Source: an uncultured Clostridia bacterium (GTDB lineage: Bacteria > Bacillota > Clostridia > Oscillospirales > Acutalibacteraceae). From it: a DNA stretch of 64,000 bases. Below the pieces are notes generated by a model, which did not search any database, was not told the origin of the DNA, and worked only from the letters and a program-made list of their open reading frames with translations. The DNA lies in contig CAMNST010000001.1 in assembly GCA_946555465.1 (NCBI GenBank), forward strand, positions 62,001 through 126,000, written 5' to 3'. Shown in pieces: positions 16,554-51,164 of this stretch. How positions within the stretch are numbered: the stretch's first letter is position 1; each line of letters opens with the position of its first letter. A program made the translations under genes and the position numbers.

Positions 16554-16660
16554 AATACATGCTCTTATTTCACGTGTTTTTTATAAGATGTGAGTTTGAT
16601 TTGTGTTGCAGCAAATAAAAGTCATGTGTTTTTATGCGCAGCCTTGGCTGCGCATTTTTT
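16534..16660 (+). ncRNA. structured RNA family, copy A (3' half, fused to pyrI end)
   Basis: This copy keeps the family's 3' part: the ACATGCTCTTA segment (16557-16567), its pairing partner around CATGT at 16623-16627, and the closing terminator. The 5' half with its own promoter is missing. Still, the end of pyrI (GCGAAACAAA, 16534-16543) can pair with TTTGTGTTGC (16600-16609) with one mismatch, where the closing stem should be. It may be a truncated copy that now acts as the 3' end of the pyr message, or a variant processed from it. The CACGT/ATGTG hairpin inside is unique to this copy. Confidence 0.55.
16634..16660 (+). terminator. terminator of the pyr operon / RNA copy A
   Basis: The stem ATGCGCAGC with GCTGCGCAT closes the loop CTTG and is followed by six Ts. 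The same hairpin, with compensated changes, ends the other three copies of the RNA family. Confidence 0.9.
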
Positions 16661-16673
16661 ATTTTGGAGTATA

Positions 16674-16703
16674 TTGACTAATAAAGTTAATTTATGGTAT
16701 AAT
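16674..16703 (+). promoter_or_regulatory. promoter of RNA copy B
   Basis: TTGACT and TATAAT lie 18 bases apart with an extended -10 (TGG before TATAAT). The expected start is near 16709-16710, exactly where the 5' arm of the closing stem begins. Confidence 0.85.
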
Positions 16704-16708
16704 GATTT

Positions 16709-16873
16709 TGCCAAATAATTAACATTTCAATATTACTACAGCAAGGTGGTCTGTTTTTTTGTAAAAAATGCAGGCTCTGTATATCGTACTGCTTTGTGTA
16801 GTATTTGATGTTAATTGTTTGGCGACAGTTGGAGCGTGCGTTTTTATGCGCGGCTTCGGCTGCGCATTTTTTT
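16709..16873 (+). ncRNA. structured RNA family, copy B
   Basis: Independent small RNA of about 165 nt. The closing stem pairs 16710-16725 (GCCAAATAATTAACAT) with 16808-16823, 16 bp with one G-U. Inside are a stem starting TACTACA/TGTAGTA and an A/U hairpin (six Ts 16754-16759 with six As 16763-16768). The single-stranded GCAGGCTC (16770-16777) can pair with GAGCGTGC (16832-16839) beyond the closing stem, making a pseudoknot. The RNA ends with the stem ATGCGCGGC/GCTGCGCAT on a TTCG loop and a T-run. No protein-coding capacity is apparent. Function unknown; the Rfam identity is open. Confidence 0.8.
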
Positions 16874-16898
16874 ATTTTTTAGGCAAAATTTTATTTTA

Positions 16899-16927
16899 TT
16901 GACTGATGAAAACAGTTGTGCTATAAT
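16899..16927 (+). promoter_or_regulatory. promoter of RNA copy C
   Basis: TTGACT and TATAAT lie 17 bases apart with TGC directly before the -10 (extended -10). The expected start near 16933 coincides with the closing stem of copy C. Confidence 0.85.
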
Positions 16928-16932
16928 AAATT

Positions 16933-17091
16933 TGCGACTCAACTAAATATAAATGCTAGTTTTGGTATGTTTTTTTTATTTTGATAAAAACACATGCTCT
17001 TATTTTCGCATATCAAAATAGCGTTTAGTTGTGTCGCAGCAATTCGAGAGTTATGTGTTTTTTATGCGTAGCCTCGGCTGCGCATTTTTTT
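16933..17091 (+). ncRNA. structured RNA family, copy C
   Basis: The closing stem pairs 16934-16948 with 17023-17037 (one T-T mismatch). The inner stem is GCTA plus TTTTGGTATG (16955-16969) against CATATCAAAA plus TAGC (17009-17022). Its hairpin is TTTTTAT-TTTG-ATAAAAA (16973-16990). The conserved segment CACATGCTCT (16991-17000) pairs with AGAGTtATGTG (17047-17057) with one bulged T. The terminator is ATGCGTAGC/GCTGCGCAT with loop CTCG. The arms differ entirely in sequence from copies B and D yet keep pairing, which is strong evidence that structure is selected. It sits between copy B and the TetR gene. Confidence 0.82.
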
Positions 17092-17170
17092 ATTTTCGGA
17101 GGTGAGAAAGTATGAGGTGAAATTCGTGCCGCAGGCTCCAATAACTGCCAAACAATTCAACATAATGTGA

Positions 17171-17204
17171 AACAGTCCCGGCAAAAGCAGGGGCTGTTTT
17201 CGTT
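17171..17204 (+). terminator. second terminator downstream of RNA copy C
   Basis: AACAGTCCC pairs with GGGGCTGTT around a 10-nt loop and a T-rich tail follows. Between the copy C terminator and this one are GGAGGTGA (17098-17105), ATG AGG TGA (17112-17120) and a 17-codon GTG frame (17117-17170). Any read-through message from copy C ends here. Confidence 0.75.
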
Positions 17205-17295
17205 TTATCTCTTTATGTGCTATTGAAAAAAATCTGTTTTCGTTGTATAATAATTTTATTATATTAAAAATGTGCTGTTAAGAAAGGATATAATA

Positions 17296-44380: not shown

Positions 44381-44645
44381 AATAAATTGATAAACGCGTT
44401 GATGAGAATACGTTTTATTTATTCAACTGTTTAAGAGAGCCGCCGTTTGGTGTGAGGCGGTACAGCGGTAAATAAAATATCCTCTCTGAGTGGCTGTGCC
44501 GAAACGATAAGTAAGCACAGACGGCTTCCACCGTTATCGGGATAGTGTATTTTAGTACATAAAGTGCGTTATTTATTAACGAAAAAGAGTGGTACCACGG
44601 TAATTTGCCGCCTCTTTGTCCTTTCGGGCAGAGAGGCGTTTTTAT
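44381..44645 (+). promoter_or_regulatory. T-box leader (tRNA-sensing riboswitch)
   Basis: Features seen in order: GATGAGA near the base of stem I (about 44400), a stem-I helix GTTTTATTTA/TAAATAAAA, AGAGAGCCGCC...TTGGTGTGAGGCGG (distal AG bulge and GGTG loop), CTCTGAGTGG closing stem I, and the T-box GAGTGGTACCACGG at 44587-44600. The terminator is CGCCTCT/AGAGGCG (44609-44615 with 44632-44638) and five Ts. AAAGAG upstream of the T-box can pair with CTCTTT of the terminator to form the antiterminator. The specifier lies in the TATCCTCTCTGAG stretch; AUC (Ile) and CUC (Leu) are candidates, and I cannot fix it by eye. Confidence 0.92.
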
Positions 44646-49477: not shown

Positions 49478-49506
49478 TTGACTTGTATTGCTCTGTATGA
49501 TATACT
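49478..49506 (+). promoter_or_regulatory. promoter of RNA copy D
   Basis: TTGACT and TATACT are separated by 17 bases with TGA before the -10, the same extended -10 layout as copies B and C. The start is expected at about 49512. Confidence 0.82.
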
Positions 49507-49511
49507 ATATT

Positions 49512-49682
49512 TACCACACAAACTTAATATATTAGTCCAAAACGAGGTATGTCTTTTTTTATCTTCTGATAAAAATGCATGCTCTGTTAATCATACTTTG
49601 TTTTGGAAACAAGTATTGAGTTTGTGTGGTGGCAAGCGGAGCAATGCGTTTTTTATGCACGGCTTCGGCTGTGCATTTTTTG
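49512..49682 (+). ncRNA. structured RNA family, copy D
   Basis: The closing stem is ACCACACAAACTTAATA (49513-49529) with 49614-49630, 17 bp with one G-U. The inner stem 49537-49551 pairs with 49592-49606 (15 bp, two G-U). The hairpin is TTTTTATC-TTCT-GATAAAAA (49556-49575). The conserved TGCATGCTCTG (49576-49586) pairs with CGGAGCaATGCG (49637-49648), with one bulged A. The terminator ATGCACGGC-TTCG-GCTGTGCAT differs from the other copies by a compensated pair change (CAC/GTG). Same order and promoter layout as copies B and C, 32 kb away, so it is a dispersed family and not just a local tandem duplication. Confidence 0.82.
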
Positions 49683-49699
49683 TTTTCGGAGGTGAAAAT

Positions 49700-49747
49700 T
49701 TGAGCAAAATTATTATGCGCATGTCTTCAACTGTTGCCAATAAATAG
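49700..49747 (+). CDS. possible 15-codon leader peptide after RNA copy D
   Basis: A TTG, 5 bases after GGAGGTG, opens a 15-residue frame (MSKIIMRMSSTVANK) between the copy D terminator and the next hairpin terminator. It is very short, has no known homologue to me, and would need read-through of the RNA's terminator. It is listed because a GGAGGTGA also follows copy C in the same place. Confidence 0.2.
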   Translation: MSKIIMRMSSTVANK

Positions 49748-49761
49748 ACAAATAAAAGAAT

Positions 49762-49790
49762 TGCCCCGATTTGTTTTCGGGGCAGTTTTT
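49762..49790 (+). terminator. terminator between RNA copy D and murC
   Basis: TGCCCCGA pairs with TCGGGGCA around a 7-nt loop, followed by GTTTTT. On the minus strand it also ends the convergent murC with a weaker T-run. Confidence 0.88.
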
Positions 49791-49793
49791 ATA

Positions 49794-51164
49794 TTATTTC
49801 AGTTTATTTATCATCATTCTTGCAACTTTATAAACATCTCCGCAGCCAAGGGTAATAACCAAATCTCCTTCGCCGGCGTTTTCTGTTACATAATCACAAA
49901 TTTCTTCAAATGTATCCAGTTGAACCGAACCCGGAACTTTGTCTGCAAGGTCTTTTGCTTTTATTCCGATTGTGTTGATTTCGCGGCTGCCCATAATTTC
50001 CGATATAACGCATTTGTCAGCAATTTTCAGAACTTCGGCAAAGTCATCAAGTAAAAGGGAAGTTCTGGTAAATGTAAACGGCTGATGAACAGCCCAGACA
50101 TTTTTATAACCCATTTTCATTGCGGCTTCAAGTGTAACTTTAATTTCGGCAGGGTGGTGGGCGTAATCGTCCGCAAAGGTTATTCCTTTATATTTTCCAA
50201 GAAGTTCAAATCTTCTTGCAGCACCTCCGAAAGCCTTTAAACCTCTGCAGATGCTTTCGGTGTCAGCACCGCTTTCAAATGCAGCAGCAAATGCACAAAG
50301 AGAGTTGAGAATATTATGCTCGCCGGGAACAGAAAGTTCAACCTTTGCAATATATTCATTGTTATGATAAATATCATAGGATGAATGGAAACCGCCGGGA
50401 ACGGAAACGTTTTTAGCAACCCATTCGTTGCCTTCATTTTTTCCCACGGAAATAAGTTTTTTACCCGTAATTCCTTTAAGCGTGTCAACCGTATTTTCGT
50501 CATCACCGTTATAAATAATTGTTTTTGTTGTTTTTTCTGCAAATTCTCTGAAAGATTTTTTTATGTTATCAAGATTTTTGAAAAAATCAAGATGATCTTC
50601 GTCAATATTAAGAATAACGGCAATATCAGGATTCATTTTCAGAAAAGTATTGTTGAATTCACAACTTTCGCAAACAAAATTCTGGCTGTTGCCGTATCTT
50701 CCGTACGCGTCAATAACAGGCAGTTTTCCGCCGATAACGGCACTCGGGTCAAGACCTGCTTCAAGCAGAACCTGTGTTATCATGGACGATGTAGTGGTTT
50801 TTCCGTGCGTTCCGCAAACACCTATGCAGTTTGAAAAAATTCTGCTTATTGCACCAAGAAGTTCTGCTCTTTCATAGCAGGGAAAGTTTTCTTTTGCATA
50901 TTCAAGTTCTTCGTTGCCTTTTAATATTGCATTTGTGTAAACAACAAGTTCAACGTCATCGGTTATATTTTCTTTTACCTGACCGAGATATACCTTTGCA
51001 CCCTCTTTTTCAATTCTTCTGAACGTTTCCGTATCATTATTATCAGAACCTGATACTTCATATCCAAGAGATAAAAGAATTTCCGCAATAGGACACATTC
51101 CGGCACCGCCTATGCCGATAAAGTGAACGCGTTTTGATTTTTTTAACATTTCATCTATATTCAT
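49794..51164 (-). CDS. murC: UDP-N-acetylmuramate--L-alanine ligase
   Basis: First amino-acid ligase of peptidoglycan synthesis, 456 residues. The N-terminal UDP-MurNAc-binding loop is FIGIGGAGMCPIAEILLSLG, the P-loop is GVCGTHGKTTTSSM (about residue 108), the central motif is NIDEDHLDFF, and the C-terminal domain has TFADDYAHHPAEI and QPFTFTRT. GGAGG lies 10 bases upstream. It stands away from other mur genes, as often in Clostridia. Confidence 0.97.
   Translation of the reverse strand: MNIDEMLKKSKRVHFIGIGGAGMCPIAEILLSLGYEVSGSDNNDTETFRRIEKEGAKVYLGQVKENITDDVELVVYTNAILKGNEELEYAKENFPCYERAELLGAISRIFSNCIGVCGTHGKTTTSSMITQVLLEAGLDPSAVIGGKLPVIDAYGRYGNSQNFVCESCEFNNTFLKMNPDIAVILNIDEDHLDFFKNLDNIKKSFREFAEKTTKTIIYNGDDENTVDTLKGITGKKLISVGKNEGNEWVAKNVSVPGGFHSSYDIYHNNEYIAKVELSVPGEHNILNSLCAFAAAFESGADTESICRGLKAFGGAARRFELLGKYKGITFADDYAHHPAEIKVTLEAAMKMGYKNVWAVHQPFTFTRTSLLLDDFAEVLKIADKCVISEIMGSREINTIGIKAKDLADKVPGSVQLDTFEEICDYVTENAGEGDLVITLGCGDVYKVARMMINKLK

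Follow-up and report, generated by a model that had tools for sequence, protein, structure and literature searches.

A putative transcription-attenuation leader with its own promoter, repeated before unlike genes in Clostridia

6S RNA combines a long closing stem and a length like that of the units described below with a promoter of its own, type III toxin-antitoxin RNAs are made of short tandem pseudoknot repeats directly 5' of a ToxN-type gene, and tandem riboswitches are generally transcribed from a single promoter that serves the whole tandem. Clusters of mobile attenuators are described, in the accessible part of PMC2965389, as strongly conserved and as descendants of transposable elements or repeats. 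The locus analysed here lies in a 64,000-nucleotide stretch (the window) of the 2.23-Mb genome of an uncultured Clostridia bacterium, where a first-pass annotation had pointed to two adjacent units, B and C, as tandem copies of a functional structured RNA with its own promoter. The covarying stem and pseudoknot reported below back that reading, and comparison of these sequences with their relatives makes it very likely that every unit forms an autonomous leader for transcription attenuation, able to take either of two mutually exclusive folds, OFF and ON.

The units of the window and their distribution

Units B and C occupy a region bounded by what we take, from the translations, to be pyrI and a gene for a TetR-like regulator (Table 1). 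A promoter scan found TTGACT and an extended -10 where the first-pass annotation had placed them in each unit, with 11 of 12 consensus bases in both promoters; the 901 bases scanned hold 7 promoter-like sites, compared with 3.4 +- 1.4 in shuffles. The closing stem that had been proposed to begin at the predicted start site is located in both units as P1 (its arms are 94% complementary in unit B) and covaries in homologues. An inner stem, an A/U-rich hairpin, a CATGCTCT-like segment and a terminator are present in both as well, and the proposed pseudoknot pairings can be read as written in C and, by eye with one G-G mismatch, in B, and covary across homologues. Both units fold far better than expected (z-score -7.3 for B and -5.9 for C), with none of 200 shuffles folding equally well. 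Beyond what had been noticed before, the window contains a truncated unit A, a further full unit at 49511-49648 that is the top covariance-model (CM) match within the window, an element D behind unit C, and an antiterminator pairing. Transcripts of what are presumably the pyr operon and a malic-enzyme-like gene appear to end in 5'-truncated units (unit A and positions 1482-1611 of locus L002, respectively).

Table 1. Positions of the units and associated features in the window.
Feature	Position	Strand	Parts and remarks	Basis
Unit A, 5'-truncated copy at the end of pyrI, where the pyr operon ends	16557..16665 (approx.)	+	J3/2-like 16557-16565; P1-3'-like 16600-16612; tail 16617-16628; terminator 16634-16655	weak CM match, 30.2 bits, E 0.0082; repeats D1, D2
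Promoter of unit B	16674..16703	+	TTGACT 16674-16679; 18 nt; TATAAT 16698-16703; extended -10	promoter scan
Unit B RNA	16708..16840	+	P1 16710-16725/16808-16823; P2a 16745-16754; J3/2 16770-16777; tail 16824-16840	CM match, 85.5 bits (unit B itself in the model's input); fold
Unit B terminator	16846..16877	+	hairpin 16846-16867; 5' part and loop able to pair with the tail (antiterminator)	
Promoter of unit C	16899..16927	+	-35 16899-16904; -10 16922-16927; extended -10	promoter scan
Unit C RNA	16932..17057	+	P1 16934-16947/17024-17037; P2 16957-16969/17009-17020; P3 16972-16989; J3/2 16990-17000; tail 17038-17057	CM match, 78.9 bits (unit C itself in the model's input); fold
Unit C terminator	17064..17095	+	hairpin 17064-17085	
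Shine-Dalgarno GGAGGTGA and start codon after unit C	17098..17120	+	family-typical spacing; stop after two codons (ATG AGG TGA)	
Element D behind unit C	17128..17157	+	antisense to the family-consensus P1-3'/tail segment	inverted repeat I1 with unit B, 79% over 28 nt
Second terminator, 3' of element D of unit C	17172..17206	+		fold, -18.6 kcal/mol
Promoter of the further full unit	49478..49506	+		
Further full unit	49511..49648	+	J3/2 49576-49585; tail 49631-49648	CM match, 120.3 bits, E 2.9e-20; sequence (L026) in the model
Elements behind the further full unit	49655..49799	+	terminator 49655-49686; Shine-Dalgarno 49688-49695; element D 49717-49741; second terminator 49758-49799	

In keeping with the description of the RNA as unidentified, none of 4227 Rfam 15 families reached its gathering threshold at the units of the window or at 20 loci of relatives. 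It is far-fetched that a known Rfam RNA (6S, T-box, Clostridiales-1, raiA and others) merely scores too low here, given that lack of gathering-level matches and given that the sub-threshold matches, at three places, fall far under the gathering scores of their families. 6S RNA (RF00013) was rejected because it has no match at the units of this genome; a 6S-like sequence below the Rfam cut-off lies elsewhere, at C1:55910-56103 (L126; 33.5 bits, E 3.7e-5). A T-box (RF00230) was rejected as well, the only one in the window being a leader at 44390-44618 (135 bits), away from the units.

A DNA search of the own genome with the region as query gave 27 places at E < 1e-8, the query counted in; the others share 67-94% identity over partial lengths. 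A covariance model built from 29 own-genome units (R1, matches taken at E up to 0.01) has 33 matches in this genome; of 80 genomes sampled from the genus, 62 contain matches (43 of the 51 good-quality ones), with 0 to 33 per genome. A second model from 108 genus units (R2, E up to 0.001) had matches in 124 of the 398 genomes of a family sample (51 of 135 genera) and in 81 of the 391 of a class sample (48 of 223 genera); in the family, class and phylum searches up to 8 candidates per genome were scored, and copy numbers per genome are to be read as "at least". Only one of 398 genomes in the phylum sample (whose share from outside the class is not stated) was matched, namely the own genome, suggesting that the model is specific and that the RNA family is confined to the class. 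The family is larger than first noted, with covariance-model matches in genus, family and class, and tandem copies with separate promoters, as in B and C, are real and recur in relatives. Longer arrays comprise four units in L137, the last of which precedes an ORF that by eye resembles PIN7 proteins elsewhere in the set, and three in L156. By pyrB, most relatives, at ~90% identity, bear the label Eubacterium or uncultured Clostridia, and the Eubacterium coprostanoligenes type strain is 82% identical; it is from these labels that we take the class to be Clostridia.

Leader arrangement and pairings of the predicted switch

For the comparison outside the own genome we used the best-scoring loci (29 + 80) among the matches listed rather than a random sample. 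They yielded 117 units (35 of 41 matches in the first loci, six weak opposite-strand matches being left out, and 82 in the further ones), 108 of which, from 100 of the 109 loci searched, entered alignment A4. In the own genome, three promoterless units were set aside and 30 others were selected by a script that required a promoter, so that promoters of own-genome units are not independent evidence. One seemingly truncated unit (L022) was excluded from alignment A1 and from the promoter count of 141 units, and was included in the promoter count of own units, in the counts of element D and in the fold counts over 165 units.

In relatives, the order of elements is promoter, RNA, terminator, Shine-Dalgarno sequence and ORF. 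All 141 units examined from other genomes have a promoter at a fixed position, with at least 9 of 12 consensus bases in 131 of them (about 10-12 of 141 in shuffles) and an extended -10 in 134. A Shine-Dalgarno-led ORF follows within 420 nt of 101 of the 117 units outside the own genome, and its start codon lies 45-59 nt past the end of the RNA model in 71 of these 101 cases; no ORF was found for the remaining 16 units, some of which are upstream members of tandems or stand at contig ends. The terminator thus lies between promoter and downstream ORF, as in an attenuator. These results refine the first-pass annotation in that, among the relatives examined, the unit usually serves as a cis-regulatory element, an attenuator leader before diverse ORFs. 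The genes behind the units are unlike one another: a Pfam search of 99 distinct downstream proteins found BspA-type leucine-rich repeats in 11 and PIN7 domains in 9 (among 25 of 48 families listed), and fewer proteins with zinc ribbons, AMP-binding enzymes, Ig-like domains, subtilases, CHAP, M23 peptidases and others. A crude heuristic assigns a hydrophobic N-terminus to 49 of 101 downstream proteins. The RNA switch probably controls the expression of surface, secreted and other accessory genes. Tested against the layout of type III toxin-antitoxin RNAs, the units repeat with a period of 212-218 nt from terminator to terminator with one promoter each, and no ToxN-type family is among the 25 of 48 Pfam families listed for the downstream proteins. 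In one congener (G021), the same 28-base sequence adjoins the terminator loop of a unit in four of its six occurrences (L277, L278, L279 and L282, all at contig ends), and a fifth (L280) resembles, by eye, the distal half of one of these terminators, followed by a PIN7-like start; the terminator loops of units in this genome may thus be insertion sites of a mobile element.

The stems of the RNA are well supported by covariation. In alignments that were fitted to P1, P2 and P3, 94.0% of cells are paired across the 108 genus units (at most 54.0% when slid), with a covariation score of 0.380 compared with 0.154 +- 0.006 in shuffles and 278 cells in which both sides have changed, and the same holds for 33 family and class units (96.8% paired, score 0.405 compared with 0.170 +- 0.011). 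RNAalifold, applied to the first MAFFT alignment, had given a consensus with P1 alone, because the arms differ in length; P2 and P3 were supplied by hand for model R1. The pseudoknot between J3/2 and the tail, which is absent from the model, is paired in 94.2% of cells (at most 58.7% when slid) with 46 double changes compared with 13.5 +- 3.0 and a score of 0.252 compared with 0.182 +- 0.008, while two of five covariation measures are not unusual (171 and 108 of 500 shuffles). Cognate partners also pair better than shuffled ones, in tests that ignore relatedness among copies: z -9.6 for J3/2 with the tail (0 of 2000 shuffles as good; 108 genus units), z -6.5 for the tail with the terminator, i.e., the antiterminator (0 of 2000; 107 genus units), and z -5.6 for P2a with J3/2 (0 of 2000). 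As controls, J3/2 with the terminator (genus units), P2b with the tail and P2a with the tail do no better than shuffled partners, and two reversed-sequence controls come out slightly low (80 and 109 of 2000). J3/2 paired with itself gives z -9.0 (0 of 2000), and since J3/2 is palindromic (GCATGC) such z-scores can arise without a partner, making P2a:J3/2 the weakest link. Among the 29 own-genome units, 0, 6 and 2 of 1000 shuffles are as good for J3/2:tail, tail:terminator and P2a:J3/2, respectively.

When folded alone, the tail-terminator segment adopts the antiterminator in 131 of 165 units and does not in the other 34; the antiterminator excludes the terminator, again as in an attenuator. 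Between tail and terminator, 160 of 165 units carry a stretch of 4-6 U, and the P3 region of 155 of 165 has five A as its longest A-run; the two could extend the pseudoknot helix, but are so nearly invariant that covariation cannot test this. Conserved in sequence are the base of P1 (GCCAAA/TTTGGC) and P3-J3/2. The units join a conserved aptamer-like domain to an expression platform and are common to unrelated genes, the arrangement expected of a riboswitch.

Since P1, P2, the pseudoknot and the antiterminator all covary, these data argue for a transcription attenuator with two exclusive folds, and since the pairings exclude one another in a chain, the OFF and ON states can be proposed directly. 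A housekeeping-type promoter would start the RNA at the base of P1. In the OFF state, pairing of P2a with P2b would leave J3/2 (GCATGCTCT-like) free to form the pseudoknot with the 3' tail (GGAGC.ATGCG-like), the terminator would form and transcription would end, releasing an RNA of about 165 nt. In the ON state, J3/2, whose sequence resembles P2b, would instead pair with P2a and set the tail free, the tail would pair with the 5' part and loop of the terminator as antiterminator, and polymerase would continue into the ORF, whose start codon lies ~50 nt further on. It is the pairing of the tail both with the loop and with the terminator, a point missed by the first-pass annotation, that suggests this mechanism. 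In the window, read-through of unit C would lead into an ORF-less locus with element D and read-through of unit B into the promoter of C. Sequence comparison supports promoter position, P1, P2, pseudoknot, antiterminator and leader context and, more weakly, the alternative P2a:J3/2 pairing; we infer the occurrence of both folds in the cell, a signal that tips the balance between them, the two ends of the RNA and the direction of its response.

The separate promoters of tandem copies are unaccounted for by the attenuator reading. Together with the terminator of every unit, the tandem arrays of L137 and L156, a unit B without a gene of its own and the ORF-less units with element D, they would suit independent trans-acting small RNAs whose proximity to ORFs is incidental. 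Such RNAs are nonetheless an unlikely explanation, as the spacing of 45-59 nt to the ORF in 71 of 101 cases, the covarying antiterminator and the identical leader arrangement in other genera all speak against them.

ORF-less copies, a 91-residue ORFan and element D

Thirteen units of the own genome precede copies of an ORFan protein of 91 amino acids, twelve complete and one cut by a contig end. This protein has no match in Pfam, PHROG or NCBIfam above curated cut-offs or at E < 0.01, and its predicted fold is a helical hairpin. It was found in one of 200 family genomes, the own genome itself; as the genomes listed include only two other congeners, related species are hardly sampled for it. 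Behind another own-genome unit lies a DUF6809 protein (L023:881-1441), which is similar to the 91-residue protein in its C-terminal part (23% identity). Among the copies compared (L004, L007, L009, L014 and L020), three pairs of the 91-codon ORFs exceed 93% nucleotide identity (mean 93.6%, 87.6% at third positions), and their units share only 58%. This gap may reflect block exchange or fast, paired divergence of the stems.

The same gap between genes and their upstream units would be expected if the units were a mobile or selfish promoter-terminator cassette (MITE- or BIME-like, a "mobile attenuator") with stems as by-products, and so would ~30 dispersed copies in one genome, the range of 0 to 33 matches per genome among 80 congeners and the truncated copies at the ends of pyrI and the malic-enzyme-like gene. 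We consider such a cassette very improbable in view of strong compensatory change at low identity, the preferred spacing to unrelated ORFs and the lack of any match to a 221-base query in phage and plasmid collections. With that one query, an origin from phages or plasmids was likewise rejected; two pattern matches on viral contigs are without a model match and look like chance.

Eleven terminal units of the own genome, including unit C and the unit at 49511-49648, have a Shine-Dalgarno-like sequence and no Shine-Dalgarno-led ORF of 45 codons within 130 nt; longer frames without Shine-Dalgarno sequence follow some of them. Behind seven of these eleven we find element D. Counted over the 165 of 171 units with at least 120 nt downstream and allowing up to four mismatches in a 15-mer, element D follows 10 of 39 ORF-less units (seven in the own genome and three in the family and class sets) and is otherwise seen at 1 of 115 ORF-bearing units, 0 of 11 tandem ones and 1 of 168 upstream controls. 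The D of unit C is weaker: its 15-mer has five mismatches, which places it outside these ten. A genome-wide pattern search for isolated copies gave 42 matches with up to two mismatches, compared with 53 for the reversed-pattern control. By eye, reading frames seem to differ between D loci, which speaks against D as a coding stretch.

At 13 hand-picked loci, the best duplex of D with the consensus tail ranges from -19.7 to -36.0 kcal/mol, and the shuffled background, sampled at every fourth position only, is -15.5 +- 2.8 with a lowest value of -24.2 kcal/mol; an ORF-bearing unit (L262) reaches -29.5 kcal/mol with the consensus tail. The D of unit C matches the consensus and the 3' part of unit B better than its own tail (-31.0 kcal/mol with the consensus, -20.3 with its own tail). 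A role of D as a cis partner of its own tail is not supported, 1040 of 5000 shuffles being as good. Since D fits its own tail no better than the tails of others, it would, if active, act in trans.

As the trigger of the switch, we rank a small molecule (that is, a riboswitch) first, at somewhat short of an even chance, an RNA-binding protein second, as a tentative candidate, and a trans-acting RNA third, as a more doubtful one. Taken together, the latter two, i.e., the same attenuator triggered by a protein or by an RNA such as a D-type transcript, describe a reading that overlaps our preferred one and to which we give about equal chances of being right or wrong: the conserved sequence at the P1 base and at P3-J3/2 and the complementarity of D to the family-consensus tail speak for it, against the sporadic presence of D (10 of 39 ORF-less units, seven of them in the own genome). 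A more far-reaching proposal, which we regard as speculative and rather unlikely, is an undescribed riboswitch class, widespread in Clostridia, that responds to a cell-wide signal and controls a large regulon of surface, secreted and other accessory genes, and whose switched-on ORF-less copies emit D in some genomes and so damp the whole regulon in trans. If true, this would be an attenuator network with its own RNA feedback via D.

Significance and described counterparts

As far as our searches show, this RNA switch family is undescribed: we found no description in the open-access literature, supplementary tables of large RNA surveys aside, where an unnamed entry is possible. The accessible parts of PMC11109978 and of the text of PMC8040213, a human-microbiome survey of candidate structured RNAs, do not describe such a family, and the latter survey might contain it as an unnamed candidate. 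An attenuator family without Rfam match would expose a regulon of surface and secreted proteins, and its signal, in gut bacteria. Covariation reveals both folds, which opens mechanism and trigger to direct tests. Separate puzzles are posed by the D elements and by stems that are far more divergent between loci than the genes downstream.

6S RNA (RF00013) differs from the units in that these carry a pseudoknot, an antiterminator and a downstream ORF and have no 6S match, the genome having its separate 6S-like sequence. Unlike tandem riboswitches with their single promoter, the tandem units found here have one promoter each. The likeness to that group is that several regulatory units stand in series before a gene, as described in the accessible part of PMC9481103. 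Like the "mobile attenuators" or BIME-based attenuators of Enterobacteria and bacilli, as far as the accessible part of PMC2965389 describes them, the units are related terminator-bearing sequences before unrelated genes, but in their stems divergence is accompanied by compensatory change, and the unit itself includes the promoter, the pseudoknot and the antiterminator. Second-messenger riboswitch regulons, such as the c-di-GMP riboswitches of Clostridioides difficile (PMC6200980), resemble the units as one leader class before many unlike genes, several of them surface-related, yet are a different RNA (the units being without Rfam match), whereas here every copy, even in tandem, has its own promoter and terminator.
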